Positions 10,657-60,288 of a DNA stretch of 64,000 bases are shown piece after piece. The stretch is from NCBI RefSeq assembly GCF_004339765.1, contig NZ_SMGO01000003.1, positions 1 through 64,000 on the forward strand. Direction: 5' to 3'. The notes under the pieces were generated by a model. That model worked only from the letters and a program-made list of their open reading frames with translations. It made no database searches and was not told the origin of the DNA. The translations under genes and the position numbers were made by a program. Position 1 is the stretch's first letter; the number at the start of each line of letters is the position of its first letter. Source of the stretch: Albibacterium bauzanense (GTDB lineage Bacteria; Bacteroidota; Bacteroidia; Sphingobacteriales; Sphingobacteriaceae).

Positions 10657-10713
10657 GTTAATATCTAGCTACTGTTTCTATGGTTTCAAAATTTATTCTT
10701 AATATTTAATCTG

Positions 10714-11964: not shown

Positions 11965-12004
11965 AGTAAATTATCAGATATAATCATCTGCTCTTCTATC
12001 TATA

Positions 12005-12019: not shown

Positions 12020-12072
12020 TATATATAATATCAAGATAAACAGAAACTTACAAACATAGCGGCTTTTAAAAG

Positions 12073-12098
12073 TGTTCATATTCGAACAGTCTATGTTC
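12073..12098. promoter_or_regulatory. Inverted repeat TGTTC-N6-GAACA plus a third half-site
   Basis: TGTTC (12073-12077) and GAACA (12084-12088) form an inverted repeat, and another TGTTC follows at 12094-12098. It lies between the divergent efflux operon (start 11964) and the oxidoreductase gene (start 12136), a suitable place for a regulator bound as a dimer. Which gene it serves is not shown by the sequence. Confidence 0.4.
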
Positions 12099-12135
12099 GG
12101 TTATAGTGCTCTATTAATATATATTCATTTGAACT

Positions 12136-13341: not shown

Positions 13342-13393
13342 TGCTCAAAAACTGATGTCATAGAAATTTGTTAAGCTCCTTATAGGGTCAAAA

Positions 13394-14131: not shown

Positions 14132-14142
14132 GCTGTAATAGC

Positions 14143-15055: not shown

Positions 15056-15057
15056 AA

Positions 15058-32583: not shown

Positions 32584-33822
32584 TTAAAACATCACTTTTA
32601 TCTTCAATCCTGCATTCATCAATTTTACTTCCCTGTCTGATAGTTTACCTACCGGCACTTTAAGAAAAGGTTCAAGAAGAAGTTTTGTTTTACCATAAAA
32701 ATCTTGTTTCTTACCTATAGAGAGATTAAAATAACCAATATTATTGTTTCCTTTAGAATCTGCTTCTTTAACAGGTTCCGTGTATTGTCTTGTAACCGTA
32801 GAATAAACAGTTGACTCTACCCCTGTTTTTGGATCTTTCACAAAGCTTTGTGAAACAACATCTGTTTCATATTGATAGGACTTATTTTCATCCAAAACCG
32901 TCAAAAGTGATACTCCCATAGATGCATAAAACCCATCACTTACCTGATATACAATCGACAATGGAATATCTAGAGCCTGCATAGAGGATTCAACACCAAC
33001 CTTTCGGGTTGAAGAAGAAATTTCAACGGGCTTCATTTCATTAGCTGCATTAATCTTGGTAAAAACCAATCCGCTTGTCAGTGATACTTTATCAGAAAGT
33101 CGGCGTTCTGTGAAAACACCTCCACCATAATTCATTTTATCTGAAATAAAGGAAGAAGAAAGTTCAACCCCAAATTTCCAATTCTCATCATTATTAGGAT
33201 TGCCTTCTCTATTTCCTATGTTTTCAGAGAGGAATACTGGACTCTCAAAAGGGCTAATTAACTCAATTTCTTTTTTGTTGCTATCAGGCCGCATCCTCTC
33301 AGCTTCCACTATTTGCTCTTTCTCTTCCACTTTAGAAACCTCCACTTCCGATGCAGCAATACTATTTATATTCTCTTCTTTTATACCTTTAATTTTAGAT
33401 TCTGCATTAAAATGTTGCTGTGCTATTCGAGTATCTTGAACCTTAACTCCTTTATGAACTTCTATCTTCTCATTCTCTTCTTCCATCTGAGTTATTGGAG
33501 AAGATGAATCTGTACTTTCCTTACTCTCCCTATCATTAGATTTTTCCCTTTCAATATTTGTTATTTTTAATTGACTATCTGAATGATACGCTTTAAATAC
33601 TGAAACAATTGATATTAAAAGAATCAATGATGCAGCCACAGCCATTATTCTCCTAATGCCTAAAAAGGACGTTCTATTAAAATCTTTTGCAGGTATCGAT
33701 ATCAGTTCCGTGGCTTGTTTTTTTTTGCAAAACTTTTCCCAAGCCCCTTCCTCATATGGAAGCTCATAATTCATGAGAGTCTCTCTGATCTCTTCAATTA
33801 TTCTATCTTCTTTGTTTTTCAT
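32584..33822 (-). CDS. Probable anti-sigma-like protein with inner-membrane helix and C-terminal beta-barrel
   Basis: 412 aa. Residues 1-57 are soluble and helical (MNYELPYEEGAWEKFCKKK resembles anti-sigma N-termini of this phylum), one membrane helix spans about 59-77, a charged low-complexity linker (80-213) follows, and the rest (214-412) has alternating strands typical of the 8-stranded OMP_b-brl family, ending in phenylalanine (GLKIKVMF). It lies 90 nt after the ECF sigma gene, same strand, so it probably binds that sigma factor. The combination implies a protein spanning both membranes. Domain names are inferred from composition, not search. Confidence 0.7.
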   Translation of the reverse strand: MKNKEDRIIEEIRETLMNYELPYEEGAWEKFCKKKQATELISIPAKDFNRTSFLGIRRIMAVAASLILLISIVSVFKAYHSDSQLKITNIEREKSNDRESKESTDSSSPITQMEEENEKIEVHKGVKVQDTRIAQQHFNAESKIKGIKEENINSIAASEVEVSKVEEKEQIVEAERMRPDSNKKEIELISPFESPVFLSENIGNREGNPNNDENWKFGVELSSSFISDKMNYGGGVFTERRLSDKVSLTSGLVFTKINAANEMKPVEISSSTRKVGVESSMQALDIPLSIVYQVSDGFYASMGVSLLTVLDENKSYQYETDVVSQSFVKDPKTGVESTVYSTVTRQYTEPVKEADSKGNNNIGYFNLSIGKKQDFYGKTKLLLEPFLKVPVGKLSDREVKLMNAGLKIKVMF

Positions 33823-35426: not shown

Positions 35427-35469
35427 AAAGCAAGAGGAGCCAATCATTTTGATTGGCTCCTCTTGCTTT
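35427..35469 (+). terminator. Terminator after the DUF4397 gene
   Basis: A perfect 20-bp stem (AAAGCAAGAGGAGCCAATCA with its complement) around a TTT loop, starting 16 nt after the stop codon. The 3' arm ends in CTTT; the opposite strand ends in a longer T run, so it may work in both directions. Confidence 0.8.
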
Positions 35470-35573: not shown

Positions 35574-36107
35574 ATGATTGACCTATCCATTGAGTATTTG
35601 TTTCGAAAACATTATTCGCGATTATGTCATTTCGCCTGGCAAATACTCAGCGACAATGAGCTAATTGAGGATATTGTACAAGATGCTTTTATGGGATATT
35701 GGAACAATAAACATACCATAGCAAATAATGATATTGCTATAAAAAACTTCCTCTATACTTCTGTCCGACATGCCTGTTATAACATCATTCGTCGAGAAAA
35801 AGTAGAACAGCGATACCACCTGCTCAATCAAACTGAAACTGTTGAAGAGCTCCAAACAATAGCAAAAATTATCCGGGCTGAAGTAATGGATGAGATTTAT
35901 AAAATTATCCAAACTATGCCAAATGGATGTCAATCGATATTTCGATTGGGATACTTAGAAGGATTAACAAACCCTCAAATTGCTGAGCAACTGAATATAA
36001 GTATCAACACAGTAAAAACTCAGAAACAACGAGGTCTAAAAATCATTAAGAGTAAACTCAGTCCTGAACTATTCTCTCTTCTAACTCTTGTATTTATAGA
36101 AGGGTAA
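35574..36107 (+). CDS. ECF-type RNA polymerase sigma factor (FecI/SusC-locus type)
   Basis: 177 aa. Region 2: NELIEDIVQDAFMGYWNNKH; region 4: IFRLGYLEGLTNPQIAEQLNISINTVKTQKQRGLK. The size and SINTVKTQ form are those of the sigma factors that partner with FecR anti-sigma proteins in Bacteroidota uptake loci. No fecR gene follows it; the nearest one is at 45064-46218 at the other end of the SusC/SusD locus. It converges on that locus. Possible -33/-7 elements (TTTG at 35500, TATATTG at 35522) lie upstream. Confidence 0.92.
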   Translation: MIDLSIEYLFRKHYSRLCHFAWQILSDNELIEDIVQDAFMGYWNNKHTIANNDIAIKNFLYTSVRHACYNIIRREKVEQRYHLLNQTETVEELQTIAKIIRAEVMDEIYKIIQTMPNGCQSIFRLGYLEGLTNPQIAEQLNISINTVKTQKQRGLKIIKSKLSPELFSLLTLVFIEG

Positions 36108-36111
36108 ATCA

Positions 36112-36165
36112 TGTTATTAAGAAGAAAGCCAAGAACGACTGTTCTTGGCTTTCTTCTTAATAACA
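36112..36165. terminator. Long bidirectional terminator between the sigma gene and the SusCD locus
   Basis: A perfect 25-bp inverted repeat around GACT (arms meet at 36136/36141), with GAAGAAAGCCAAGAAC as the core arm. It lies 5 bp after the sigma-factor stop and 8 bp before the convergent DUF1080 stop, so it should end both transcripts. Confidence 0.88.
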
Positions 36166-36172
36166 ATTCGCT

Positions 36173-36934
36173 TTAAAGCTTACGTATCCAGATATTTCTA
36201 AAACTTATTGTTTCTCCATGATCTTGTAACATTATAGGACCGTCTCCATGTGCTTTATATTTTGGTATACCTATATAAGCACTATTCCCTTTATATTCTG
36301 AATTATTTTGAACAAGTACCCCATTATGCAGTAAAGTCAAACGAGCAGGACTAAATAAAGCACCATCCTCTTTAAATCGAGGGGCAATGTATATTACTTC
36401 ATAAACATTCCATTCCCCTGGCATTTTCATCGCATTTACTAAAGGTGGAACTTGTTTATATAAGCTACCGGCCATCCCATTCACATAAGTTTCATTATTA
36501 TATGAATCAAGGATCTGCAACTCATATCCTCCCTGCATTATAATTCCACTATTTGAACGATGCTGACCATCACCAACTACTTTAGCAGGCGTTTGCCATT
36601 CTATGTGTAATTGGAAGTCTCGGAAATCATCTTTTGTATAAATAGAACCTCCACTCTTCACTACAGTTAGGACATTATCTGTAATATTCCATTTTGGTAT
36701 CTCCCCATTTCTAGTTTTCCATTGAGACAAGTCTTTTCCATTAAAAAGAACAAGGGCATCCGAAGGAGCCTCCTGACCAATACCTGGCGTAACTACTCGC
36801 GGTTGGGGTTCCCATACTTCAGTCATTTCCGGAACCATTTTCGGAACCTCAGCTACTTCTTTCGTTTGCGCATAAGTGTTGATTACATATGGTGTAATCA
36901 ATGAAACCAATATATATTTAATGTATTTATTCAT
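36173..36934 (-). CDS. Exported DUF1080 (3-keto-disaccharide hydrolase family) protein
   Basis: 253 aa. Signal peptide (ILVSLITPYVINTYAQ), then a single DUF1080 domain recognised by ALVLFNGKDLSQWKTRNGE, GSIYTKDDFRDFQLHIEWQTP, NSGIIMQGGYELQILDSYNN, GEWNVYEVIYI and the end DHGETISFRNIWIRKL. Members act on 3-keto-sugars produced by oxidation of glycosides. It is the last gene of the SusC/SusD locus, 38 nt after the dehydrogenase-like gene, which could supply the oxidised substrate. Confidence 0.88.
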   Translation of the reverse strand: MNKYIKYILVSLITPYVINTYAQTKEVAEVPKMVPEMTEVWEPQPRVVTPGIGQEAPSDALVLFNGKDLSQWKTRNGEIPKWNITDNVLTVVKSGGSIYTKDDFRDFQLHIEWQTPAKVVGDGQHRSNSGIIMQGGYELQILDSYNNETYVNGMAGSLYKQVPPLVNAMKMPGEWNVYEVIYIAPRFKEDGALFSPARLTLLHNGVLVQNNSEYKGNSAYIGIPKYKAHGDGPIMLQDHGETISFRNIWIRKL

Positions 36935-36972
36935 ATTATTTATTATTAAAATTCATTTAAAATGATGTGCTT

Positions 36973-39939
36973 TTATTCGTTCGGTATATTATTCATTGTG
37001 TACCATGCCTCTGTTGACCAAAGAGTTGTATCAGATTCATTCACCATTGTTTCTCTATTGAGACGGAAATAGAGAACATATTTTTCTTTCATTGTTGGTA
37101 ATTCTAAAGTCACCTTCTTTCGATCGGGCGATACAATAATATTCTTTATTTCTAAAGTCTCTTCATCTAAGTTTGGTCCTCCATAATTTCCAGTAGGTTC
37201 GTACCTCCATTGTTGAATATTATAATCAGTTGCCTTAGTACCAACCCCTGGCTTTAAAGGTTCAGTAAATTCAATTTCAACGCCATTGGATTTAGCTTTG
37301 ATCGAGAGCATTTCAAAAGTAGATTTATGATTAAAAACAATCTTTTGCAAACCATATCGCAATTTTCCATTTTGTCCCCAATTGCCACCATTCCCTATAC
37401 CACCAATATAAAGAGCACTATCTGGCCCCCATATTATACGGTTTACACCAGCTTCAAGTCCTTGAGTAAACCGGAATACAACTCCTTGATATTCTCCATT
37501 AATTTTCTCAGCAAATACACGTTTAATTCCTCCAATCGTAACATCTCCATGAATCATTTGATTCTTATAAGGTCCAACATTGAATTTAGCAGGCTGACTT
37601 GGAGAATTACCAATCTTGTCATGTTCCAAGTAAACTACAGGAAGTGTTTCTTTCATATTAGCTGTTTCTTCCATATGTCCTGCACGTGAACCATACCATG
37701 CCCCTTCAGTCACATGAACAATTTTATTTGCAGGTAGCCAATCTCCTTGATTATCTGCGATAAACATTTCGCCATCAATACCAAAACCAATACCATTTGG
37801 TGTCCTCAAACCTGTTGCAATGAATTCTATTGCACCTGTATCTTTTGAAATCTTAAAAACCTTACCTCTATCTGCTGCTTGAACTGGAGCCGATGGTCCA
37901 GGACCATTTAAAGCTAATGACAATGTTCCATAAAAATATCCATCTTTATATTCCAAACCGAAAGCAAATTCATGATTGTTGTTTGTACCTTTCCAACTAT
38001 TATTAATTGTTCGGTATTCATCTATAATACCATCACCATTTAAATCAATCAACTTAGTCAACTCTTGCTTTTGTAGTACGTAAATCTCATCATTTACCAC
38101 TTTTAACCCCAAAGGTTCCTGTAAGCCGTAAGCAACTCTTGTTACCTTAATCTGATCTGGATTATTACCTTTCACTCCATCTAAAACATACACTGCTCCA
38201 ACAGAATCCCACGTACTTACAACTAGTTTACCATCTGACATAAAATCCATACCAGCTACCTTTGGTTCAAAACTATCAGGTCGAGCTTGGAATAATGTAA
38301 AACTTGGATGAAGATCTTTAAGAGAAGCTCCATCTCCCGGAAAATTAATTACTTTTTTAGCTAAAACCTCTGGCCGATTATTTGTTGCTTTAATCTGCGT
38401 ATCTTTAAATGTAAAAACTTCAGCAGGAATAACAGTATAAGTATCTGTACCATATGGACGCCATTGTAAAGACATCCTTTTTTCACCACCTCGCTTATAA
38501 TATTCATAAACAAAAGGATGTTTGCCTGCCTTTAAATCAATAACACCTTCCTTAACAGCAGCCATATTTCCTTCAGTCTCAATTATCATTTTGTCATCAA
38601 TAAAAAGTCTAGTCCCATCATTACTTGCAAGTCTGAATTCTACCTTTATATCTTCTTTTATATTTAAATATCCACTTGCTTGAATAGCAAAATTTCTTTC
38701 GAAACCCTTAAAGTTTTTCTCAAAATCATCATTATATGCATGCAAAATATTTGCATAACCAGTTAATTCAGGAATGTTATTTCCTGTAATTTGAGGAAAC
38801 CCATATAATTCATAATCTAGTTTATAAAGATTAAGAGCAACACCTGGCTTTTCAATCGATACGCTATTAATAGCGGTTGGTTGTTGAAAAACAAAGTCTT
38901 GGTTTGTATCCGGCATTATGCTCCTCAATCGATTTTCACTCGCTGAATCAATGTTCAAAATATAAGAAATCATTGCATTAGCATCAACAATTGATAGTTC
39001 AGAATGAGGGATCATCGGAACTTCACCCCAATTACCTACAGTTCCTTTAATTACATGTTCAATTAATAAATCATGATTGGCCTTAGTATTTCTATAACGC
39101 GAAGCAATCGAACGAAAAGATGGTCCAATTATTTTATTGTCAACATCATGGCAGGTTAAACAACTCTGGCTTGCAAATAAAGCTCCTATAACATCTTCCT
39201 TTTCTACTGTTTCTACAATTAGAGGAGCAATAGGCTTTGGTGTGATATTAATAGAAATCGAAGTCTCTTCATTATTCTTTAAAAAGAGGGTGCCATTCAT
39301 TAGCAAATATTTCTTACCCGAAATATTCTCTACCTCCTCTTTGTGTAATACAAATTTCCCATTTGTATTTACTTGCTCCTTAGACTCAATAGAGCTAACA
39401 TTCATCTTTAATCCTACGCTAATACCTTCAGGTATTTCCGAGGTTTTAAATACCCTTGTAAATCCCACCTTATTGTCACTCTTAGGATAAAATTCAGGTT
39501 GTTCATCCACCTTAATAATCCCATTATTATAATGCAGCTCATATTTCAGAGTAATTTGGTCATTAAGAACAGTATGACCTTTATAATGTATTTCAGGTGT
39601 AATTTCAGAACCATTGGCAATAATAATCCATGGATTTCCTTCTGGCTCTTCCATATAGGTATTACCATTTGAGATAGGCAGACCACTTTTACCATATACT
39701 GCACCTCCTAAATGTACACCACCTACCCAGACCTTATATAATGAACCAGTTTCTGTACTATAAGCAACCCAAAGTTTATCATTCAATCCTATGCTTATCA
39801 TCCTCATTCTCGAGTCCAGATTTGATCTTACAATCCAATCTTTGGGTCTGTCCACATTATTTCCCTTATAATTAAAGGAATATAAAATGGTAGCGAAGCA
39901 ACTCACTAGTATTATTGCTATAAATTTAATGTATTTCAT
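36973..39939 (-). CDS. Large exported protein: cytochrome c, PA14 and sorbosone-dehydrogenase-like propeller
   Basis: 988 aa. Signal peptide, then a beta-rich N-terminal region (30-240) I do not recognise, a c-type cytochrome with CLTCH at 260-264 and IPHSELS as its methionine-side region, a PA14-like carbohydrate-binding module (about 365-510, FRLASNDGTRLFIDD and SLQWRPYG), a six-bladed propeller of the glucose/sorbosone dehydrogenase type (about 550-880, GLRTPNGIGFGIDGEMFIADNQGDW) and a short beta C-terminus. It probably oxidises a sugar in the periplasm and passes electrons to the haem. PQQ dependence is possible but cannot be read. Confidence 0.8.
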   Translation of the reverse strand: MKYIKFIAIILVSCFATILYSFNYKGNNVDRPKDWIVRSNLDSRMRMISIGLNDKLWVAYSTETGSLYKVWVGGVHLGGAVYGKSGLPISNGNTYMEEPEGNPWIIIANGSEITPEIHYKGHTVLNDQITLKYELHYNNGIIKVDEQPEFYPKSDNKVGFTRVFKTSEIPEGISVGLKMNVSSIESKEQVNTNGKFVLHKEEVENISGKKYLLMNGTLFLKNNEETSISINITPKPIAPLIVETVEKEDVIGALFASQSCLTCHDVDNKIIGPSFRSIASRYRNTKANHDLLIEHVIKGTVGNWGEVPMIPHSELSIVDANAMISYILNIDSASENRLRSIMPDTNQDFVFQQPTAINSVSIEKPGVALNLYKLDYELYGFPQITGNNIPELTGYANILHAYNDDFEKNFKGFERNFAIQASGYLNIKEDIKVEFRLASNDGTRLFIDDKMIIETEGNMAAVKEGVIDLKAGKHPFVYEYYKRGGEKRMSLQWRPYGTDTYTVIPAEVFTFKDTQIKATNNRPEVLAKKVINFPGDGASLKDLHPSFTLFQARPDSFEPKVAGMDFMSDGKLVVSTWDSVGAVYVLDGVKGNNPDQIKVTRVAYGLQEPLGLKVVNDEIYVLQKQELTKLIDLNGDGIIDEYRTINNSWKGTNNNHEFAFGLEYKDGYFYGTLSLALNGPGPSAPVQAADRGKVFKISKDTGAIEFIATGLRTPNGIGFGIDGEMFIADNQGDWLPANKIVHVTEGAWYGSRAGHMEETANMKETLPVVYLEHDKIGNSPSQPAKFNVGPYKNQMIHGDVTIGGIKRVFAEKINGEYQGVVFRFTQGLEAGVNRIIWGPDSALYIGGIGNGGNWGQNGKLRYGLQKIVFNHKSTFEMLSIKAKSNGVEIEFTEPLKPGVGTKATDYNIQQWRYEPTGNYGGPNLDEETLEIKNIIVSPDRKKVTLELPTMKEKYVLYFRLNRETMVNESDTTLWSTEAWYTMNNIPNE

Positions 39940-40035
39940 CTTTTAACGGTTAATTTGTATGAGATCAAAATATCCCAATTGACTTTGTAAATGCTTCAAA
40001 TTCAATTGGGATACATCTACAATAACATCCTTGAA

Positions 40036-41577
40036 TTAATTATATCCTGGATTTTGGTCAAGGTTCGGATTACTTGCCCTTGCTGTAGAGGGAATCGGAA
40101 ACAATTTCTCTGTGATAAAATCAGTTTTCCCTTTAAATAATTGCGGATCAGCAAATGTACCAAATCGTATCATATCAGTTCTACGGGTCATTTCTAAAGA
40201 AAACTCTCTACCTCTCTCATCGTAAATATCCTTTAATGTTAAAGTTGTATATAACTTTGAAGGATCGTCATTGAATGCTCTACCTCTGATAAGGTTAACA
40301 TTACTAATGGCTTCAGCCATAGTTCCATTAGTAGCTCCTCTTAATATAGCTTCTGCCCTCATCATATATATATCGGAATATCTGTATATTACAACATCAT
40401 TGTTTGCATTATTCCCTAAAGCATTCTTATCCGGAGCATATTTAATATTCCTTGCTCCAGCTAGTTTACCTAAATTATCTGCACCTCCTACATCATAAGC
40501 AGGGAAATAATAGGGATCAAGAACTATATTAACACCATTAAATACCAATGGTGTACCATCTTCATTATATTGTTGTCCATACAACCACTGCTTTTTACGA
40601 ATATCATCATCATCATAAGAATCTAAGAATGCAGGTTGTGTGCACCAACCATTCCAACCACCTGCTTGCAATCCAAAAGTATAACGATGTGCCGAATGCA
40701 GCATTTTCTTAAATAACCAATTGCCAGTAGCCTTTTGCGCATCAAAAGGTATTGCCCAAATTATCTCTTTATTCGCAGGTCCATTAGTAGGACTGAACAT
40801 ATCAAAATAGTTAGCTGAAGACGATAATGTATACGCATTCGAACCAATAACTGCATCACTATGCTCAACTACTTTATTCCAATAAGTTTTACCTGCATAA
40901 ACCTCAGCATTGAGATAGATTTTCGCTAATAAAGTATGTGCCATCCATTTCGTAGGACGACCATAGGTTGTAGCATTTACATCTTCTGATAAAAGATCAA
41001 CGTTAGCCTCGATCTCTCCTACAACAAATTCAAACACCTCTGCTCTAGATGATTGAGATGGTGCTTCTGCCTTATCATCAAAAGTGGTAACAATAGGTAT
41101 ATTTCCAAATGCATCCAACATAGAATAATAATACCAAGCCCGCATAATTTTGATTTCTGCAAAAGTCCTTTCCTTTTCTGGTGACTCTGGTGCGCTTTCT
41201 AAAGATTTTAATATTCTATTACAAGTAGCAATAGCTCCAAATCCCCAATTCCATGAATTTTTCATTAATTCGTGAGAAGCTGTCCATTCATGATAGTGCA
41301 TAACCTTCCATTTACCTCCATCAAACCAATCTCCTCCACGTGCAGGAATCAAGACTTCGTCTGTCCCAGTTGATTGCAAATCAAAATAATTATTATCAAA
41401 GAATTTTTGGGCCGCAACATAAATTGGCCCTGTTAATACTGCATACTGCTCAGGAGTACTCGGAAAATTCTTGTCGGTATACACCGAATAAACATCTTCA
41501 TCCAACTTCGTACAAGAAGTTAGCATTAATAGGGGTACCATGAATGTAGATAACCCTTTTATAAATATATTTTTCAT
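40036..41577 (-). CDS. RagB/SusD family nutrient uptake lipoprotein
   Basis: 513 aa. Lipobox MLTSC (Cys22). SusD hallmarks: early helical TPR region with NRILKSLESAPE and IKIMRAWYYYSMLDAFGNIPIVT, then WMAHTLLAKIYLNAEVYAG, and the C-terminal YRYSDIYMMRAEAILR, ERGREFSLEMTRRTDMIRFG and LDQNPGYN. It forms the surface lid that captures glycan or other ligands for the SusC porin encoded 27 nt upstream. Ligand unknown. Confidence 0.95.
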   Translation of the reverse strand: MKNIFIKGLSTFMVPLLMLTSCTKLDEDVYSVYTDKNFPSTPEQYAVLTGPIYVAAQKFFDNNYFDLQSTGTDEVLIPARGGDWFDGGKWKVMHYHEWTASHELMKNSWNWGFGAIATCNRILKSLESAPESPEKERTFAEIKIMRAWYYYSMLDAFGNIPIVTTFDDKAEAPSQSSRAEVFEFVVGEIEANVDLLSEDVNATTYGRPTKWMAHTLLAKIYLNAEVYAGKTYWNKVVEHSDAVIGSNAYTLSSSANYFDMFSPTNGPANKEIIWAIPFDAQKATGNWLFKKMLHSAHRYTFGLQAGGWNGWCTQPAFLDSYDDDDIRKKQWLYGQQYNEDGTPLVFNGVNIVLDPYYFPAYDVGGADNLGKLAGARNIKYAPDKNALGNNANNDVVIYRYSDIYMMRAEAILRGATNGTMAEAISNVNLIRGRAFNDDPSKLYTTLTLKDIYDERGREFSLEMTRRTDMIRFGTFADPQLFKGKTDFITEKLFPIPSTARASNPNLDQNPGYN

Positions 41578-41604
41578 CTGCTTTTAGATTTAAATTTCTG
41601 TAAA

Positions 41605-44600
41605 TTAAAAACTAAGATTTACTCCTAAAGTATAAGAACGAGTCTTAGGATAATAGTTCTGGTTATCTATACCTGGAGATAGACCTCCAAGTGATACTTC
41701 TGGATCAACTCCTGTATACTCAGTGATTGTAAATAAATTTTGGGCGGTGACATAAATTCTAGCGGTACTAAAACCTTTTATACCTGTCATATCAAAATTA
41801 TATCCCAATGTTGCATTATCTAACCGTAAAAAAGACCCGTTTTCTAACCACCTACTTGAAGCTACCGGAGTTTCAAATATCCCTTCGTCAGCGGCAATTT
41901 CAAGCACATTATAGGTGCCAATCTGATCCAATCTAGAAAGGTTTGCACGAGTAGCATTAAATATCTTATTACCATAAACACCTCTTATAAAGATATTTAA
42001 ATCAAACCTTTTATATTGAAAAGAGTTAGACCAGCCAAAAGTAAACTTTGGTAAGGCATTCCCCATTACCTGATAATCATTCGGTGTAATTAGCTTATCT
42101 GAAGTAACAATCTCTCCATTGCTATTTTCATAAATTGTTTTCTGTAAGTCAGAATCAAAACCTAAATATTTCACAGTATTAAAAGTGCCCACAGCTAAAC
42201 CTGGTTTAACAAGATGAACATACTGTCCGGTCCATCCAGAAAGACCTACACCACCTTCTAATCTTTGTGTTACATTTAAGTTTCCGATATTGCTACTTAA
42301 AGAACCAATTCGATTTTTATTTGATGCGAAATTTGCGGAAGAATTCCATTTGAAGTCTTCCTTATTTATTATTTTAGCATTTAATGCTACCTCAATTCCC
42401 TTATTGGTCATCGAAGCACCATTAGCAAGTAATCTATTATATTGATATGGAGGAGTAGGAACGTCATAGGTATACAACAAATCATTTGTCTCCTTTGAAT
42501 AGTATTCAATTGTTCCACCTAAAACTCCTCTAAAAATTTCAAAATCTAAGCCTATATTAAACATTTGTGTACTTTCCCATTTCAAATCAGGATTAGGATT
42601 CTGAATAACAGAGTAGCTATTCGTCCACTCTCCATTATATAAGAATTGAGAGTCTTGTGGTCCATATAAAGTCATGGATCGATATGGTGGAATATTTTGA
42701 TTACCAGAAACTCCAAACCCAGCTCTAACGCTTAAATTATTGATCCAATCATGATCCCTTAAGAAGTTTTCTTCAGAAACTCTCCAAGCTGCCCCTGCCG
42801 ATGGAAACATTGCCCAGCGATTATTTATCCCAAATTTAGATGACCCATCTCTACGTAATGTACCACTCAAAATATATTTTCCTTTAAAACTGTAATTAAT
42901 GCGGCCGAAATAAGATACCAACTGTGATTTTGCTTTTTCAGGAAAATCTCTATAATGTAGTGTAGCATCCCCTTGTCCAAACGACAGATTGCCGCTTCCT
43001 ATAGCATCAGATGAAAAAGTGTTTTGTCTTCCGCTAATTCCATCATTGATAATTACCTGTTGATAAGAATAACCAAGTAGCGCTTTAAAATCATGGTCAT
43101 CATTCAATATCTTTGAGTAATTCAATACAGACTCAAAAGTATTATCAGTATTTTTAATAGAAGAGCGTTCAGCGTACCCCATTCCATTCGCCTGAACAGA
43201 GACGTCTCCCCTTTCCATATAATAGTTTCTATCATAATCTTCTCGTTGTAATGTTCCGGAAAGGTTAAGATTCAAATCGGGAAGAATTTTAACATCAAGA
43301 CTTGTATTACCTAAAAAGACATTCCTTTGCCGATCCTGGTGTCTCTGATTAAGCATTGCAACAGGGTTTGAACCTCCTACTCCAACCAATTGATAGTAAC
43401 CTCCATACATATTATATTGTGGATCATTGCTAGTAATAGGTGATATAGGTAAATAAAGAGCTGAATTAGCAAAGACACCATAATCTATATGATTGGAATT
43501 ATTAATACTCGTACTTAATGTAAGTCCAAATTTCACTCTATCATTAAAAAGATCCTGAGTCAAAGCAAGTCTTCCAACCATACGCTCATAATCGTTATTC
43601 TTTACAATACCAGGATTATTAAAATAAGTTAACGAAGCATTGTAAGTAGATGATTCACCACCTCCTCTTAATGAAAGACTATGACTCTGAGAAACTGTTT
43701 TTCTAAATATTTCATCTTGCCAATCCGTATTAAATCCATTCTCTAATCCGTTTACCACTAAATTATTATCAGCAACAAATTTTCTATAAGCCCCAGGACT
43801 TAATACTTCTACACCTTTTGAGATGCTTTCAAATGCAGTATATCCACTATAATTTAAAACGGCCTTACCAGACCTACCTTTCTTAGTGGTTATTAAAATT
43901 ACTCCATTAGCTGCTCTTGATCCATAAATTGCAGCCGAAGAAGCATCTTTTAATATATCAATAGAAGCGATATCTTCAGGAGCAAGCAAATCAATGGAAG
44001 CACCCGGCACGCCATCAATCACGTATAGAGGTTCAGAACTTGCTGTTAATGAAGACGGTCCTCTTAACTGAATGGTCGACCCTGCTGTAGGATCACCTCC
44101 TGGTCTATTAATTACCAAACCAGCAACTTTCCCGACAAGCAATTGACTTGGCGAAGAAACTACACCGCCATTAAATTCATCTGGAGAAACACTTGTCACA
44201 GAACCTGTAATTTCATGTCTTTTTTGAGTTCCGTATCCAACTACGACAACCTCGTCCAATTCCGATTCTGCCTCTTCTAAAACAACATTGATTGAGTTTT
44301 TCCCATCTAAAGGAACTTCCTGTTCAAGATATCCAATATAAGATACGATCAAGGACTCATTTAAACTTGGTATATTTAACGAAAAACGACCCTGGGCATC
44401 GGTTGTAGTACCAATCTCGCGCCTTCCCTTTAAACTAATCGATGCGCCTTGTAAAGGATTACCATCACTATCTATAATTACGCCAGAAACTGGCACGTCC
44501 TGCTGAGCAATCAATACACTCTGAGCTGGAAAATCACTGCTACCCCGTATTACATCAACAGTAACAGTACCAGCAATTAATTTATATCTCATTTGCTTAT

Positions 44601-44913
44601 CTTCAGTAAGTCGATTAAGCGCATCGTCCACATCTACATTTCTCACGACAATATTTACAGATGAGGCTCGCTTTAATACTTCATTACTATACAGAAACCG
44701 ATAACCAGTCTGCTTGGTTATTTCTGAGAAAACTTGCTCAATTTTTGCATTCTTAAATGAAAGTGTTACTTTCTGAGCCATGCTCTCGGCTCTTACACCC
44801 GTCACTAATATTAGCAATAGAAAAAGGGTCATCTTCATGATTAGTATGATTCTATTGGTGGTTGGAAAGCCAGAGGAATCTTCTGGCTTTTTGTCAAATA
44901 AAAAGTATTCCAT
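41605..44913 (-). CDS. SusC/RagA TonB-linked outer membrane transporter with STN domain
   Basis: 1102 aa. The long N-terminus before the signal helix (ILIMKMTLFLLLILVTGVRAESMAQ) is usual for this group. An STN domain follows (VTLSFKNAKIEQVFSEITKQ, about 48-115), then a carboxypeptidase-like domain (VSGVIIDSDGNPLQGASISL), the TonB-box-like VVVVGYGTQKR, a plug domain (PLYVIDGVPG, IDILKDASSAAIYGSRAANG) and a 22-strand barrel ending LGVNLSF. The STN domain normally signals to FecR, whose gene lies 150 nt upstream. It imports the ligand bound by the SusD partner. Confidence 0.96.
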   Translation of the reverse strand: MEYFLFDKKPEDSSGFPTTNRIILIMKMTLFLLLILVTGVRAESMAQKVTLSFKNAKIEQVFSEITKQTGYRFLYSNEVLKRASSVNIVVRNVDVDDALNRLTEDKQMRYKLIAGTVTVDVIRGSSDFPAQSVLIAQQDVPVSGVIIDSDGNPLQGASISLKGRREIGTTTDAQGRFSLNIPSLNESLIVSYIGYLEQEVPLDGKNSINVVLEEAESELDEVVVVGYGTQKRHEITGSVTSVSPDEFNGGVVSSPSQLLVGKVAGLVINRPGGDPTAGSTIQLRGPSSLTASSEPLYVIDGVPGASIDLLAPEDIASIDILKDASSAAIYGSRAANGVILITTKKGRSGKAVLNYSGYTAFESISKGVEVLSPGAYRKFVADNNLVVNGLENGFNTDWQDEIFRKTVSQSHSLSLRGGGESSTYNASLTYFNNPGIVKNNDYERMVGRLALTQDLFNDRVKFGLTLSTSINNSNHIDYGVFANSALYLPISPITSNDPQYNMYGGYYQLVGVGGSNPVAMLNQRHQDRQRNVFLGNTSLDVKILPDLNLNLSGTLQREDYDRNYYMERGDVSVQANGMGYAERSSIKNTDNTFESVLNYSKILNDDHDFKALLGYSYQQVIINDGISGRQNTFSSDAIGSGNLSFGQGDATLHYRDFPEKAKSQLVSYFGRINYSFKGKYILSGTLRRDGSSKFGINNRWAMFPSAGAAWRVSEENFLRDHDWINNLSVRAGFGVSGNQNIPPYRSMTLYGPQDSQFLYNGEWTNSYSVIQNPNPDLKWESTQMFNIGLDFEIFRGVLGGTIEYYSKETNDLLYTYDVPTPPYQYNRLLANGASMTNKGIEVALNAKIINKEDFKWNSSANFASNKNRIGSLSSNIGNLNVTQRLEGGVGLSGWTGQYVHLVKPGLAVGTFNTVKYLGFDSDLQKTIYENSNGEIVTSDKLITPNDYQVMGNALPKFTFGWSNSFQYKRFDLNIFIRGVYGNKIFNATRANLSRLDQIGTYNVLEIAADEGIFETPVASSRWLENGSFLRLDNATLGYNFDMTGIKGFSTARIYVTAQNLFTITEYTGVDPEVSLGGLSPGIDNQNYYPKTRSYTLGVNLSF

Positions 44914-44978: not shown

Positions 44979-45001
44979 CGGAGGTGCTACGAACACCTCC
45001 G
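44979..45001 (+). terminator. Terminator-like hairpin in the fecR-susC gap, facing the plus strand
   Basis: CGGAGGTG and CACCTCCG (8 bp, 7-nt loop) followed by seven T on the plus strand, the opposite direction to the flanking genes. On the minus strand no T run follows, so it is not a normal attenuator for susC. It might block antisense transcription; it might also be chance. Confidence 0.45.
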
Positions 45002-45063: not shown

Positions 45064-46218
45064 TTATTTAAATTGTATAGTAATATTTCTTCCTGAAATA
45101 TCATAAGTAGAACCGCTTATATAGGTTAACATTTCAACAACTTCTGATAAGTTTACATTCCTGCTTATACTTCCACTAAACATCTTATCTTTTGGAATCT
45201 GTCCTTCAAAGTTTATACTTATATCATACCAACGAGATAGCTGTTCTGCAATTTGAAGGATATTGTCATTTTTAAAATAAAAATCTCCGCTCTTCCATGC
45301 AACAGCTTTAAGCGTATCGGCCCGCTGGATAGTAATATCTTTTCTAACAATAGCTTCTTGTCCTGGCTTCAACAATCGTTGATCTGTCTGGCTTGCTATC
45401 TTCACTGATCCTTCCATTAAAGTAGTCGTTACGGCATCATATGAATTAATATTGAAACGTGTGCCTAATACTTCTACTTGAGTACCATTAACATTCACAA
45501 TAAAAGGTCTACCAGTATCATGTGCAACTTCAAAATAAGCCTCGCCTTTCAAATAAACAATGCGCTCATCGTTATCAAAATTTACGGGAAATTTTAATTC
45601 AGACATTGCATTTACCCACACTTTAGTACCATCAGACAATATTAAACTATACGTTCCTGCTTTAGGGACTATCAGCGTATTATAAATTAATCCTCCACTT
45701 GCTAAACCTGAATTTGAATAATTTATTTGACCATCACTACCCATAATTAATGTTCCATCTTGTTCACTGAATGCACCTTGATGCCCCTCCAAACCAACTG
45801 AGCTTCCATCCGATAATACCAATTGAGCTTTATTACTGCCAGGTAATACATCATCTTTAAGTTCCGTTATTGCATCAGGCGTGACTTTCTGAATAGACGA
45901 TGTTGATAATCTAAGAAGACTTATTGATGAGAACACGATTAAAACCGCCGCTGCAGCATAACCCGTATAACGAATCATCATTTTCAATCTATCCTGCTTC
46001 TTTTGATGAGAAATTCTTTCCCATGCTTCATCTACATTAACTTTACTAATAAAATCAATATCACTTTGCGCAGAATATCCTTTAAATGAATCTAAGAGTT
46101 GTCTGTTTTCATCTTTCTCTCCCAACCATTTCTCTAATATTACTTCCTCTTCTTCAGAGATAATACCCTGAAGATATTTACTTATTAATTGAGCGATATA
46201 ATATGGTTTTCCTTTCAT
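45064..46218 (-). CDS. FecR-family anti-sigma factor
   Basis: 384 aa from ATG at 46218 (MKGKPYYIAQLISKYLQG); a start at 46236 adds MRVFIV and is less likely. N-terminal cytoplasmic sigma-binding domain (about 1-80), a membrane helix (AAAVLIVFSSISLL), the FecR domain (IVPKAGTYSLILSDGTKVWVNAMSELKFP and VYLKGEAYFEVAHD) and a C-terminal DUF4974 domain similar to STN (DNILQIAEQLSRWYDISINFEG). It receives the signal from the SusC STN domain. No sigma gene is next to it; the best candidate partner is at 35574-36107. Confidence 0.94.
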   Translation of the reverse strand: MKGKPYYIAQLISKYLQGIISEEEEVILEKWLGEKDENRQLLDSFKGYSAQSDIDFISKVNVDEAWERISHQKKQDRLKMMIRYTGYAAAAVLIVFSSISLLRLSTSSIQKVTPDAITELKDDVLPGSNKAQLVLSDGSSVGLEGHQGAFSEQDGTLIMGSDGQINYSNSGLASGGLIYNTLIVPKAGTYSLILSDGTKVWVNAMSELKFPVNFDNDERIVYLKGEAYFEVAHDTGRPFIVNVNGTQVEVLGTRFNINSYDAVTTTLMEGSVKIASQTDQRLLKPGQEAIVRKDITIQRADTLKAVAWKSGDFYFKNDNILQIAEQLSRWYDISINFEGQIPKDKMFSGSISRNVNLSEVVEMLTYISGSTYDISGRNITIQFK

Positions 46219-46307
46219 TACAATAAAGACACGCAAACTTAATATTGGGGTGACAAGAAATAATAATAACTTCCTAAATGAAAGAAAAGCTCAGATATGG
46301 GAAAAGC

Positions 46308-52104: not shown

Positions 52105-55100
52105 TTACAGTTCTTTAATACGGATATTTTTGAAATGAACTTCAGATCCATGTCCTAGAAAAGCGATATGACCGCTAGTTCTTTTTAGGCCCGGATGATC
52201 CTTTTTATCCAGTGTACCATTCTTCACAGCTTCACTTAGATTTCCACTTAAAATTACCTTTCCGTTTAAAGTTACTTTAATATCATTTCCTTTAATATAA
52301 ATCTCTTCCTGATTCCACTCACCCATTGGTTTAAGAGCACCTCGCTTTGCTGCAAGAATACCATATACAGAACCATGGTATTGATAAACTTCTAAATCCT
52401 TATACATATCAGCATCATCATCCAATACCTGAATTTCCATTCCAACATAAGCAGCATCACCGGTTAAAGGACTGCGAATCCCAATTCCATTATTAGCTCC
52501 CGGCGTTAAACGAAACTCAAAACGATAAACAAAATCACCAAATTCCTCTTTGGTATATAAGTTACCGCCTGAATCTTTAGTAGGATAAATAGCTAAAGTT
52601 CCTTCATCACTTACAACATAAGCCGATGTATTACCTTGCCATGAATCTAAATTAGTTCCATCAAATAAAACTTTAAACCCTTCGTTTTTCTCTTGTTCAT
52701 TCAACTGAAAAATCTCTTTTCGTGGAAGTTCTTTTAAGAAGATATCCCGATAATACACTAAAGTTCCATGTGCCTGAAGCTCAATCTGCTCAACAGGGAA
52801 AATAGATTGATTTCTATCCCAATAGTTCTCTAATGTAACATTATCCACAACCAACTCTCCATTTAAATGAACAGTTACTTTCTCCCCTACCATTTTAATC
52901 TTCATGGTATTCCAATCTCCCAAAGGATTATCAGCAACCTTCGATGGCTTACTTTCATTCTCCTTATTATTATACAAACCTCCGGAACCAACTTCAGCAC
53001 CTACATCTGTACGCGAAATATCCCACATCTGTACTTGAGGAGTTCCGCGCAAATAAACACCCGCATCTCCATCTTTTCCATTTTTATCAAGCTTCCAATC
53101 AACAAGCATCTCAAAATCACCATATTGCTTTACAGTTGCAATATTATTTCCCTTTCCCGTAAAAGCCAATATTCCATCTTTAACAATCCAGCCCTGACGC
53201 ATTTCTTCATCAGCTTTTACTTGCGCAGCAGCCAATTCCGATTCACTCATTTTACTTCTTTTAATCGGATCAGCAACCAATCCCTTCCAACCGCTCAAAT
53301 CTTTACCATTAAACAATGAAACATAACCTGCTCCTTTTGGCATTTCATCAATATGCTTAATTACTGCTTCTCTCAAATACCCACTCTCACTGCCACTTAA
53401 AAGCTCAATAACTTTATTAAGCAGGCCTTTAACATCTTCACCATTATAAGCCGGATTTAGCAAAGCAATGTTCATAACCGTGTTTGCAGCAACCCTTCCC
53501 AATTCCTTATCATCTAAAAAGGTTCCAGCAAACCTCAATGCATTATAGGTATTCGTTGCCTCAATATTTCTCAGAATACTCTGCTTTTGTGCAGCAGTCT
53601 GAGCTACTTCCATTAAATCACGATAGATCAAAAGCTTTCTTTCTCCAGTAATGTCAGAACTTGCAGTAAGACGAACCAAACCCTTCACTATAGCATCTAA
53701 TTGGGCAGCATTTGTTGTTGTTCTACTTAAATCAATCAGCGTTTGAAGCGCACTTTGGTCTTTCCAGTTTGCTAACGACAATATAACCGCATTCTTTAAA
53801 TCTGCATTATTCGTTTTGCCTGTTTCAATAACAGCTTCTAACGCATCTTTACCACCGATACCTGAAAGAACTGTTAAATACTTAACTTTCTGCTGATCAT
53901 TCTGGCTATTATACTGACTAAGAATACTTGATATATCTTGATCTTTATTCGCACTATTTTCTACACTATTTATAATAGCTTGTTGAACATTCTTATTATC
54001 ACCGTTTGTATTCATTAAAGCTAATAGAACAGGTAAATCAGTAGAACGCACTATTTGAGGAAGAGCCTCAAAAGCTGCCTTTTGTACAGCAGTATCATTA
54101 TCGGTTAATAAACCCTTTATAGCAGAAAAACTTCCAGGATAAGCACGATGCGAAAGTACCTCAATAAGAACTACTTTATTTTGAGCAGTAGCTGTCGGAA
54201 GAGCTTCAACTAATAAAGGTTGAACCTGCTCTCCTCTCATGGTTAAAAAAGCCTCTTGTATCGCAGATCTATCAGTTGTATCTCCTTTTGCTAATAAGTT
54301 TAATAAAACAGGCAGAGCTTTATCACCCTCTAGTTTTGATAAAGCAGCAATAGCGCTGGCGCGTTCAGCACCCGACTTGCTCTTTAAAGACTTTTGTATT
54401 GAAGAAACAACTGAACTGTTATTGCTTCTAGCCAAAAATGTAATAAAATCAGCTTTGGCATCTGCATCAGCTTTCTTCAAACCTTTAACCCAATCATTGA
54501 TAGTAGACTGGTTTAAAAATGGAGAAGCTAATTTTAATGCAGCCACACGATATTCCAAATTCTTATCATTCGCAGCTTTAACCAGACTCTTTGTATAATT
54601 CTCACCGTTTATTTTTGTCAAAATACTCAATGCAGCAATACGAGAATCTACCTGCAAATCACTATTCGTGTTTTTAAGTAAATCATTCGCTAAACTTTCA
54701 GCTAAAGCATTATTTTTCCCTACCAATTGTGAAATATAATGAATGTAAGAACCTGTAGCATTCGTTACATCATAAACATAATTCACGCTTGAAGCTGCAT
54801 TCTTAAGAGCATTTGCAGATGCCGGCCCGGCTATATTAGAAAGTGAATATAATAACACCTTTTGTACATCCGGATTACTGTTTCCAATCATTGGCAATAA
54901 TACCGATTCAGCTGCTGCGTACTTCGAATCACCCAAAGCTTCAATAACAGAAATTAATGCATGACCTTTTGCAGAAGGCAAAGCACCAATAAGAGCTTTA
55001 GATGCCAATTCAGAGCCAATGCTTGCTAATGCCCGCGATGCTTTTTCAGAAAGATATTCATCTGTTAAAAAAGGAGTTAAAGCCACAACTGCATCATCTT

Positions 55101-55497
55101 TTCCAGCCTTATGCAATAAGGAAATAACATATCCCTTATTATCTTTATCAGCAACTTCATTTAAAGCAGCATTAAGGCCTTGCACATATTTTGCACGTTG
55201 ACTCTCTTTACCTGCTTGTTGTACATAAAAAGCATAACTGTTTGTAGCGTATTCAAGTTTTGAATTATTTCCCTGTCCGGGAGGAGTTAATGTCTTTAAT
55301 AAAGCAGTAAAATCAGAAGCTTGAAAAGCATCCATTTGCTTCATGGCCTCATTTAATTTCTGCTCATTCAGCGAAGGCTGTTGAGCAAGAAGATCAGCAA
55401 TCTTTGTTGTGGTAGTCCGTTGATCAACCTGTTGAGCATAGACCGGTGATTGCTGAATAAAAATTGCAAATAATACTAAATATAATAATTTGTTCAT
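52105..55497 (-). CDS. HEAT-repeat protein with two C-terminal DUF1080 domains
   Basis: 1130 aa from ATG at 55497 (MNKLLYLVLFAIFIQQSPVYAQ, a signal peptide); the open frame reaches 55539 and would overlap the upstream gene. Residues about 30-720 form many HEAT-like helical repeats (ALIGALPSAKGHALISVIEALGD, AERASAIAALSKLEGDKALPVLLNLLA). Two DUF1080 (3-keto-disaccharide hydrolase family) domains follow, beginning VSLFNGKDLSGWKG (about 725) and FKVLFDGTNLDSWQG (about 935). Exported. It follows the Gfo/Idh/MocA oxidoreductase gene by 29 nt, which could make its keto-sugar substrate. Confidence 0.88.
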   Translation of the reverse strand: MNKLLYLVLFAIFIQQSPVYAQQVDQRTTTTKIADLLAQQPSLNEQKLNEAMKQMDAFQASDFTALLKTLTPPGQGNNSKLEYATNSYAFYVQQAGKESQRAKYVQGLNAALNEVADKDNKGYVISLLHKAGKDDAVVALTPFLTDEYLSEKASRALASIGSELASKALIGALPSAKGHALISVIEALGDSKYAAAESVLLPMIGNSNPDVQKVLLYSLSNIAGPASANALKNAASSVNYVYDVTNATGSYIHYISQLVGKNNALAESLANDLLKNTNSDLQVDSRIAALSILTKINGENYTKSLVKAANDKNLEYRVAALKLASPFLNQSTINDWVKGLKKADADAKADFITFLARSNNSSVVSSIQKSLKSKSGAERASAIAALSKLEGDKALPVLLNLLAKGDTTDRSAIQEAFLTMRGEQVQPLLVEALPTATAQNKVVLIEVLSHRAYPGSFSAIKGLLTDNDTAVQKAAFEALPQIVRSTDLPVLLALMNTNGDNKNVQQAIINSVENSANKDQDISSILSQYNSQNDQQKVKYLTVLSGIGGKDALEAVIETGKTNNADLKNAVILSLANWKDQSALQTLIDLSRTTTNAAQLDAIVKGLVRLTASSDITGERKLLIYRDLMEVAQTAAQKQSILRNIEATNTYNALRFAGTFLDDKELGRVAANTVMNIALLNPAYNGEDVKGLLNKVIELLSGSESGYLREAVIKHIDEMPKGAGYVSLFNGKDLSGWKGLVADPIKRSKMSESELAAAQVKADEEMRQGWIVKDGILAFTGKGNNIATVKQYGDFEMLVDWKLDKNGKDGDAGVYLRGTPQVQMWDISRTDVGAEVGSGGLYNNKENESKPSKVADNPLGDWNTMKIKMVGEKVTVHLNGELVVDNVTLENYWDRNQSIFPVEQIELQAHGTLVYYRDIFLKELPRKEIFQLNEQEKNEGFKVLFDGTNLDSWQGNTSAYVVSDEGTLAIYPTKDSGGNLYTKEEFGDFVYRFEFRLTPGANNGIGIRSPLTGDAAYVGMEIQVLDDDADMYKDLEVYQYHGSVYGILAAKRGALKPMGEWNQEEIYIKGNDIKVTLNGKVILSGNLSEAVKNGTLDKKDHPGLKRTSGHIAFLGHGSEVHFKNIRIKEL

Positions 55498-55526
55498 GAG
55501 TCTTTTATTGGCTTTATGAAATAATA

Positions 55527-56795
55527 TTAGATGGTCCATGGTCCGCGCATTGGCTGATCAATTAAACGATTAGCTGCTTCGTCATTAATAAACTCCTCCT
55601 TAACCGCATCATACTTAAGTGTTCTTCCAAGCCTTACAGCAGTAAGGCCCATATTAACCAATGTACAAGAACGATGCCCGTTCTCTTCATTTAAAGCAAA
55701 CTTCTTACGTGTTTTTACAGCTTCTATAAAATCCGTAACCTGTGCCTCAGGCTCAGGGAAAGAAGCTAATTTTTGCTCCATATTAGGAATATCCGAAACA
55801 AAACCACGGAATAATTTCCCGTCCGGGCCATCAATATAAGGTACATTTTCAATTGCCCCCTCACCATCTAAAATAATCTTACATCCATCTGCGTAGGTAT
55901 ACGTAATTTTACGCCAGGTACCTACTGCATCACTGTGTTGTTGCGGTGCATCAACTTCTATCGATATCGGACTTTCATTATCTTTTCCTAAAAAATATTG
56001 AACCGGATCTAAATAATGTTGCCCCATATCACCCAATCCACCACCATCATAATCCCAATATCCTCTAAAAGTAGTATGCACACGATGTTCACTATAAGGT
56101 TTAAAAGGAGCAGGCCCTAGCCACATATCATAATCAAGTTCAGCAGGAACCGGGTCAACAGGCAGGTTCTCTTTACCCACCCAATAAAACTTCCAATCAA
56201 AACCAGTATGACGCCCAACTGTAACTGTTAAAGGCCAGCCCAGCATTTTAGAGTCTACTAATTTCTTAATCTTTTTAACAGGAACACCCATCCCGTAAAA
56301 ATTACTATCAAATCTAAACCAGGTGTTTAACCTAAAAATACGGCCATGTTGCTGAACAGCTTCCCTAACTCTTTTTCCTTCTCCAATAGTTCTTGTCATC
56401 GGCTTTTCACACCATATATCTTTCCCTGCTTTCGCAGCTTCTGCAGCCATAATACCATGCCAATGAGGTGGAGTAGCAATATGAACAATATCTAAATCAG
56501 GCATTTGAATCAAATCCCGATAATCTGCAAATTGCTTAGCACCATTTTTCAGCATATCAGCCGCAAGAGCGAGATGCCTTTTGTCTACATCGCAAATTGC
56601 GATAGTCTTTGTTCCGCCATAATTAAAGTGGCCACGGCCCATACCGCCAACCCCAATCACAGCTTTTGTTAAATGATCGCTAGGTGCCAGGTAACCTTGG
56701 CCTCCTAAAACAAAGCGAGGTACAATTGTAAATGCAGCTGTTGCAATAGCCGCATTCTTTAAGAATCCACGTCTAGAGTGTTTTTGTTTATCCAT
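55527..56795 (-). CDS. Tat-exported Gfo/Idh/MocA family oxidoreductase
   Basis: 422 aa. The twin-arginine signal SRRGFLKNAA (RR at residues 8-9) shows export in folded form with its nicotinamide cofactor. N-terminal Rossmann domain: AVIGVGGMGRGH, then IAICDVDKRHL, IVHIATPPHWHG and the family's EKP in DIWCEKPMTRT. The C-terminal domain holds MGQHYLDPVQYFLG with the catalytic-region histidine. Exported members oxidise sugars or glycosides, often at C3, with tightly bound NAD(P). It is co-oriented with the HEAT-DUF1080 gene just downstream. Confidence 0.92.
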   Translation of the reverse strand: MDKQKHSRRGFLKNAAIATAAFTIVPRFVLGGQGYLAPSDHLTKAVIGVGGMGRGHFNYGGTKTIAICDVDKRHLALAADMLKNGAKQFADYRDLIQMPDLDIVHIATPPHWHGIMAAEAAKAGKDIWCEKPMTRTIGEGKRVREAVQQHGRIFRLNTWFRFDSNFYGMGVPVKKIKKLVDSKMLGWPLTVTVGRHTGFDWKFYWVGKENLPVDPVPAELDYDMWLGPAPFKPYSEHRVHTTFRGYWDYDGGGLGDMGQHYLDPVQYFLGKDNESPISIEVDAPQQHSDAVGTWRKITYTYADGCKIILDGEGAIENVPYIDGPDGKLFRGFVSDIPNMEQKLASFPEPEAQVTDFIEAVKTRKKFALNEENGHRSCTLVNMGLTAVRLGRTLKYDAVKEEFINDEAANRLIDQPMRGPWTI

Positions 56796-57029
56796 GCGTA
56801 TTAAAGTAAATAATATTTATACAGGTTAAAAGCAGAATGATTTATTATTAGGATGTATGGTGTTTCTAATTTAGTATTTTTTATTAGAAAACAAACATTT
56901 ATTAAAATTAACAGCCAAACAAAAACCTGCGATAAACACAAAAACACGCAATAATTAAATCGCTTTTTTGTAATTTGCTCCCCTGCTTAGCTATTACTAT
57001 ACAAGTAAATTAAAACATACAAGAGAAGC

Positions 57030-58163: not shown

Positions 58164-58244
58164 AAACTCATTGCAAGATAATACATCAGATATAGCTGGT
58201 ATTAGACTTGCTTTACATATTTGAGTTATCACCGAGTGATCCAT

Positions 58245-58301
58245 CCGTTGTATCTGCGTTATTTTGCGTAAAACAACGCAGATACAACGGACTCTTCTTT
58301 T
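58245..58301. terminator. Terminator between the DACNV gene and the ThuA gene
   Basis: A perfect 16-bp inverted repeat (CCGTTGTATCTGCGTT at 58245-58260 with its complement at 58275-58290), an inner TTTT/AAAA stem, then ACTCTTCTTTT on the plus strand. It lies between convergent genes. Confidence 0.75.
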
Positions 58302-58354
58302 AAAAGTTCTTAAAAATGTATTAGAAGGTGTGTTTTAGCCTATTCTGAGGCCAT

Positions 58355-59368: not shown

Positions 59369-59375
59369 ATCTGTT

Positions 59376-60248: not shown

Positions 60249-60288
60249 TATTCAATTTGGGGTGGCTATTATCTAACGTTTTCTTTAT

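Follow-up and report, generated by a model that had tools for sequence, protein, structure and literature searches.

A SusCD operon of Albibacterium bauzanense that pairs a haem-bearing, sugar dehydrogenase-like propeller with a DUF1080 protein: a possible oxidise-then-cleave uptake unit

Introduction

How might a SusCD operon without a classical glycoside hydrolase (GH) or polysaccharide lyase (PL) break down its substrate? The question is raised by four genes in a 64,000-nucleotide stretch of the Albibacterium bauzanense genome (NZ_SMGO01000003.1, positions 1 to 64,000; hereafter the window). They are, in the order of the operon:

41605-44913, minus strand: SusC-type TonB-dependent transporter with an STN signalling domain, 1102 aa (TIGR04056, E 1.7e-241; STN, PF07660)
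40036-41577, minus strand: SusD-type surface lipoprotein, 513 aa (PF07980, SusD_RagB, E 1.3e-27)
36973-39939, minus strand: P0001, a domX-cytochrome c-PA14-propeller protein, 988 aa, with a lipobox-like N-terminus (open reading frame (ORF) and Pfam)
36173-36934, minus strand: P0002, a DUF1080 / 3-keto-disaccharide hydrolase family protein, 253 aa (PF06439, 149.3 bits)

Our answer is that the propeller and DUF1080 very probably form a joint redox-plus-cleavage unit. We reach it because the propeller is paired with electron carriers, because it is fused or adjacent to DUF1080, and because these proteins draw on shared modules that recur in different chains. We put at about even the chance that this is an oxidise-then-cleave uptake operon in the full version, with oxidation at C3 and P0001's own haem; here we infer the cofactor, the C3 position, the electron flow and the substrate.

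SusC and SusD are adjacent, as in other SusCD loci, and the intergenic gaps are short (SusC-SusD 27 bp, SusD-P0001 96 bp, P0001-P0002 38 bp). None of the four operon proteins matches a GH or PL family in Pfam. The preliminary description of the window, made from the sequence alone, was therefore right about the gene set, which the ORFs and Pfam/NCBIfam matches bear out, and about the lack of a classical hydrolase or lyase.

P0001 and the electron carriers of its family

P0001 contains the following parts. The preliminary description had named the cytochrome c, PA14 and propeller parts; the N-terminal domX is added here.

39250-39843, minus strand, residues 33-230: domX, beta-supersandwich-like (our own hidden Markov model (HMM); predicted model pLDDT 87.5)
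39148-39162, minus strand, residues 260-264: CLTCH haem motif
38950-39183, minus strand: class I cytochrome c domain (PF00034, Cytochrom_C, 22.0 bits, cut-off 21.3)
38431-38850, minus strand, residues 364-503: PA14 domain (PF07691, E 1.3e-12)
36976-38280, minus strand, residues 554-988: sugar dehydrogenase-like propeller with a small C-terminal beta domain (AlphaFold, PDB matches, hhalign)

The cytochrome domain matches c551-type PDB chains (E 3.6e-14) and has both the CxxCH motif and the distal Met of class I cytochromes c, with Met309 the candidate axial ligand by position. By eye, the Cys at the lipobox position also occurs in nine full-length P0001 orthologues.

Counts for the propeller family are taken from 62 Bacteroidota propellers, because the scan patterns behind the 66-row set A2 contain the His and Arg motifs, so that part of the constancy of these residues there is built in. 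The 62 come from searches that required no His/Arg motif, with some loci contributed by an earlier P0001 search; the search profile, A2, was itself built from the 66-row set found by motif patterns. A carrier, either haem c or cupredoxin, is fused to 57 of the 62 propellers and adjacent to 4 (61/62 in total); for comparison, of the 136 other ORFs in these loci that reach 500 aa, 10 contain CxxCH. The active-site Arg is likewise kept in 61/62, and the sole carrier-less propeller (L127) has Gln in place of this Arg and Asp in place of the His. The kinds of carrier vary: cytochrome c may sit at the N- or the C-terminus, and cupredoxin is C-terminal or encoded by the neighbouring gene. Of the other relatives in the A. 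bauzanense genome, the two nearest carry a C-terminal cytochrome c (L021) and a C-terminal cupredoxin (L022). Among 80 genome-scan loci, a carrier is fused in 38, adjacent in 26 and neither in 16, 10 of which are actinomycete. The near-constant company of a carrier in the 62 propellers is in line with the earlier suggestion that electrons would go to the propeller's own haem.

The column of His656 is His in all 30 DUF1080-linked propellers and in 20 of the 32 unlinked ones (Fisher p 1.4e-4, on rows that are not phylogenetically independent). As a separate observation, locus L229 encodes two divergent giant cytochrome-bearing propellers, of 1440 aa (6681-11003, minus strand) and 1431 aa (11634-15929, plus strand), both with Trp at the conserved His position.

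Linkage of the propeller to DUF1080

P0002 is a clear member of PF06439 (149.3 bits, cut-off 26.8, E 1.7e-43). Its best PDB relative is 4qhz (E 3.4e-80), listed only as 'putative glycosyl hydrolase'; for entries 8rr2 and 8tda the E value is no better than ~0.005.

Besides A. bauzanense, nine of 395 genomes of the phylum encode full-length P0001 orthologues (E <= 1e-55, 41-47% identity), and in five of the nine DUF1080 lies downstream on the same chain (1221-1226 aa). All ten actinomycete relatives have PA14, propeller and DUF1080 in one protein, and the one scanned with Pfam has a CBM35 too. Over the 80 loci, DUF1080 is fused in 12, within 300 bp in 35 more and within 10 kb in 3 more. The expectation is ~0.06 DUF1080 matches per 20 kb (287 matches in ~103 Mb), estimated from 17 of the genomes with scanned loci, three actinomycetes being left out; the 3.08-Mb A. 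bauzanense genome itself has 18 matches to the DUF1080 domain. Directly behind the fused orthologue gene in L121 and L122 stands a Gfo/Idh/MocA gene, which fits a later reduction of the keto-sugar.

According to our own HMM, domX is common to DUF1080 proteins, multihaem proteins and P0001, so modules are shuffled from chain to chain. The best structural match of domX is the YidC periplasmic domain (VIA Z 10.4), followed by GH38 and galactose-mutarotase folds at ~9-9.5; we rejected naming a function from these matches, since Z values of at most 10.4 are too weak.

A quick tree groups P0001-type and actinomycete proteins with an SH-aLRT of 93, below the starred level. It has 78 rows, with L229 and L233 left out and with one antisense ORF wrongly included (L032_9328_12501, on a long branch of 9.07). 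We did not retain the actinomycetes as the closest kin of P0001: their top rank is partly an effect of the search pattern, and full-length orthologues exist in its own phylum.

Propeller fold and active site

Two propeller residues discussed below are encoded at:

37972-37974, minus strand: His656
37804-37806, minus strand: Arg712

The propeller matches DUF7133 in Pfam (31.8 bits), and its AlphaFold model has a pLDDT of 90.8 and a pTM of 0.91. The top 14 Foldseek rows are all sugar dehydrogenases of the pyrroloquinoline quinone (PQQ) type, including 2ism, 1cq1/1c9u and 3a9g. Six such entries reach VIA Z values of 24.2-26.2 (3a9g at 3.1 A root-mean-square deviation over 284 residues); AA12 scores 23.5, a Diels-Alderase 23.4 and SMP30 21.7. 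On the predicted model, the PQQ sugar dehydrogenases do lead the other propellers, though by a modest margin, and by both methods the model has their six-bladed fold.

Profile comparison with canonical GSDH gives 97.6-99.0% probability in hhalign; the profile holds 24 canonical GSDH proteins from the A. bauzanense genome and its relatives, and 14 alignment runs were made. We take certain residues of L128, from family motifs, to be the counterparts of those in sGDH and AA12, and this choice agrees with PDB alignments. The roles of the sGDH and AA12 residues follow PMC6881789 and PMC6881810. Arg712 aligns with the PQQ-site Arg (sGDH Arg228) in all 14 runs. Arg834 lies one residue off the column of the C-terminal Arg pair, at a position that is Arg in 57/62 propellers and Lys in 5/62. 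The relative P0004 matches PF07995 (27.4 bits, cut-off 25). From the fold and profile matches and the partly kept PQQ-site residues, we regard P0001 as PQQ-dehydrogenase-like, not as a proven member of the family. A PDB sequence search with the 66-propeller profile was left unused: most of its hits were designed Pizza propellers, matched by way of a single short repeat, and 2ism came only at E 1.2.

SusCD linkage

No SusC or SusD was found beside any of the nine full-length orthologues, nor in six family relatives (L161-L166). Only three of the 62 propellers, those of the window, L199 and L226, have SusC or SusD encoded on their own strand at a distance of 400 bp or less, and SusCD lies within 10 kb in two named relatives, L094 and L105. 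Within the A. bauzanense genome, SusCD linkage recurs in the P0001 operon and in L021 (SusC-SusD-DUF1080-propeller), and in L022 SusC and SusD follow closely behind, in the same orientation. Since SusCD is rare beside the relatives and recurrent here, the uptake linkage is mostly a feature of this genome.

These results divide the earlier proposals. A search for the gene set in relatives, which the preliminary description had called for, recovers the propeller and DUF1080, fused or adjacent, in many loci, and SusCD in few. Its partnership of propeller and DUF1080 is supported by the fusions. For its 'oxidise-then-cleave uptake locus', the joint oxidise-and-cleave unit is well supported and conservation of SusCD with the pair is not. 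Its idea of the propeller as a sugar oxidant is supported by the fold and by Arg712; the PQQ-binding Asn is replaced.

Proposed mechanism and alternatives

In the mechanism that we propose, SusCD would bind and import a glycoside, as is typical of its family. The propeller of the lipid-anchored P0001 would then oxidise a sugar hydroxyl through a bound, PQQ-like cofactor, and the class I haem c of the same protein would relay the electrons to the electron pool of the periplasm. Oxidation, most likely to the 3-keto glycoside, would weaken the glycosidic bond, which the DUF1080 protein would then cleave. Signalling through STN-SusC, FecR and the ECF (extracytoplasmic function) sigma factor may induce the operon. 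The haem propeller as oxidant is the simplest reading here. That enzymes can split 3-keto glycosides by beta-elimination is established (PMC10628242). The strictest form, a self-contained unit in which a PQQ-type propeller with its own haem or cupredoxin oxidises C3, rather than C1, of an intact glycoside and hands the 3-keto product to DUF1080, which in some Bacteroidota is part of the one polypeptide, here wired to SusCD, we hold only tentatively.

Several observations weigh against this mechanism. At the active site, the column of the catalytic His (sGDH His144) holds Glu657 in 10 of the 14 runs, His656 in 3 and is unaligned in 1; the PQQ-binding Asn (sGDH Asn229) is Thr in all 14; and the C-terminal Arg pair, which binds the PQQ carboxylates, aligns with Gly/Ala and Asn. 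P0001 has no PF07995 match at E <= 0.001, and no PqqE scores above the cut-off in the A. bauzanense genome or in 10 other Bacteroidota. In the known PQQ propellers the position oxidised is C1 of a free sugar, not C3 of a glycoside (PMC6881810). No DUF1080 was seen near four of the nine full-length orthologues, and none lies within the stretch examined in 30 of the 80 loci. In the ten actinomycete proteins no carrier is fused, nor was one found next to them. Finally, two LacABC-like sets of GMC and Gluconate_2-dh3 genes lie elsewhere in the A. bauzanense genome (C1:446966-462774, ~15 kb apart). Many of the 30 loci without DUF1080 are from Planctomycetota and Verrucomicrobiota, where a domX protein with up to five CxxCH motifs adjoins the propeller. 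Despite the lack of a PqqE match, PQQ may be taken up from outside: the A. bauzanense genome keeps a canonical GSDH, so the cofactor may be scavenged.

The alternative that survives best is a division of labour, in which a flavin dehydrogenase of the LacABC type, encoded at another place in the genome, supplies P0002 with 3-keto substrates, and the sugar then released is oxidised at C1 by the haem propeller. The two GMC and Gluconate_2-dh3 sets (C1:447 kb and 462 kb) speak for it, as do the partnership of LacABC with DUF1080 in Caulobacter (PMC9007349) and the action of sGDH and AA12 at C1. We consider it unlikely, however, as single-chain fusions of propeller and DUF1080 suggest successive action on the same molecule, although they do not fix the order. 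The reverse order is less probable again: DUF1080 would be a direct glycosidase, and the part of the haem propeller would be only to oxidise the product set free. In its favour, glycosidase action on the xanthan backbone has been proposed for DUF1080 proteins (PMC5673643), and PMC9007349 describes THTE_1561 as an endo-xanthanase/lichenase. The latter paper nevertheless describes another family member, BT2157, as a 3-ketotrehalose hydrolase, and the Pfam family is named for 3-keto-disaccharide hydrolysis. Least probable of the three is a ligand-binding or lactonase-type propeller, with the cytochrome there for another purpose and a substrate needing no oxidation: six-bladed lactonases match the fold too (SMP30, Z 21.7) and the PQQ ligands are only partly kept, but unrelated kinds of carrier accompany 61/62 propellers and the sole carrier-less one has lost the conserved Arg.

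Transcription signals and regulation

The operon is flanked by regulatory genes and structured intergenic regions:

45064-46236, minus strand: FecR anti-sigma factor, upstream of the operon (PF04773, PF16344)
39940-40035, minus strand: hairpin with a U-rich tail between SusD and P0001, a possible attenuator (-22.5 kcal/mol, z -3.15)
36108-36172, no strand: terminator hairpin between the end of the DUF1080 gene and the convergent sigma gene (-38 kcal/mol, z -11.6)
35574-36107, plus strand: ECF sigma factor, the probable FecR partner, convergent downstream of the operon (TIGR02985)

The hairpin after the DUF1080 gene is a perfect 25-bp stem; with so strong a hairpin at the operon end, a single transcript covering all four genes plausibly stops there. 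The hairpin between SusD and P0001 could set expression of the transporter above that of the enzymes. A promoter scan performed at chance (54 found, 55.9 expected). STN-bearing SusC, FecR and an ECF sigma factor are the usual components of trans-envelope induction.

Two further structures lie nearby. A hairpin at 44979-45001, between FecR and SusC, is followed by seven T on the plus strand and looks like a terminator for transcription opposing the operon. A 20-bp stem with a T-rich tail occupies 35427-35469, near the DUF4397 and sigma factor genes.

Other features of the window

A second oxidise-and-cleave cluster lies at 52105-63453 (minus strand). It encodes a 1144-aa protein with two DUF1080 domains and HEAT repeats, a Gfo/Idh/MocA oxidoreductase, ThuA, a TIM barrel and a 1054-aa protein combining GDSL, DUF7133, HEAT and cytochrome c. 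Inside it is a plus-strand DACNV-sensor gene (57030-58163). At 175-9952 (minus strand) there are four tandem ORFs of 791-818 aa, of which the three scanned are MacB/FtsX-type permeases; an HlyD-family gene (10714-11964) lies near them. A 412-aa ORF at 32584-33822 (minus strand) has no Pfam match.

Significance

The mechanism would supply a testable oxidant for those DUF1080 proteins that have neither LacABC nor Gfo/Idh/MocA beside them. It would also assign a concrete function to the DUF7133-like propellers with electron carriers, a family so far uncharacterised. The five natural fusions of 1221-1226 aa make the whole reaction assayable in one protein: haem reduction by a glycoside together with liberation of the aglycone would demonstrate respiration-linked, non-hydrolytic glycan breakdown. 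If the proposal is true, C3-oxidising propellers would be a further class of oxidant in the non-hydrolytic breakdown of glycosides, spread over Bacteroidota, Planctomycetota, Verrucomicrobiota and Actinomycetota.

Comparison with known systems

The operon resembles SusCD polysaccharide utilisation loci in having SusC, SusD, FecR and ECF sigma regulation, and differs from them in lacking any GH or PL by Pfam. In the Gfo/Idh/MocA pathways for 3-keto glycosides of Bacteroides, the oxidant is NAD-dependent and DUF1080 cleaves the oxidised glycoside. The P0001 operon has instead a haem-linked propeller without an NAD domain; a cluster with Gfo/Idh/MocA, DUF1080, TIM barrel and ThuA is found at 52105-63453 of the same window.

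With PQQ dehydrogenases of the sGDH/Asd type and with AA12 (PMC6881789, PMC6881810), P0001 shares a six-bladed propeller and an active-site Arg; the AA12 enzyme CcPDH also has a haem domain on the same chain, but with haem b. P0001 differs in its haem c, PA14 and domX, in being paired or fused with DUF1080, in lacking a PF07995 match, in having Thr for the PQQ-site Asn and in aligning no Arg with the C-terminal Arg pair, Arg834 being one residue off.

A further parallel is LacABC. DUF1080 proteins and LacABC dehydrogenases have been proposed to support lactose use via 3-keto intermediates (PMC9007349), and in Caulobacter and Pedobacter, as proposed here, an intact glycoside is oxidised in the periplasm and then cleaved by the DUF1080 product of a nearby gene. 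In those bacteria LacABC is the oxidant, whereas here it would be the propeller-haem protein, in an operon without a GMC or Gluconate_2-dh3 match. Titles and the opening parts of abstracts yielded no description of a DUF1080-propeller link, in literature coverage that mostly excludes subscription papers. Oxidise-then-cleave with DUF1080 is already known from LacABC; what would be new is the quinoprotein-like haem propeller as oxidant, which makes this operon a variant rather than a new class unless a PQQ-type reaction at C3 is shown.

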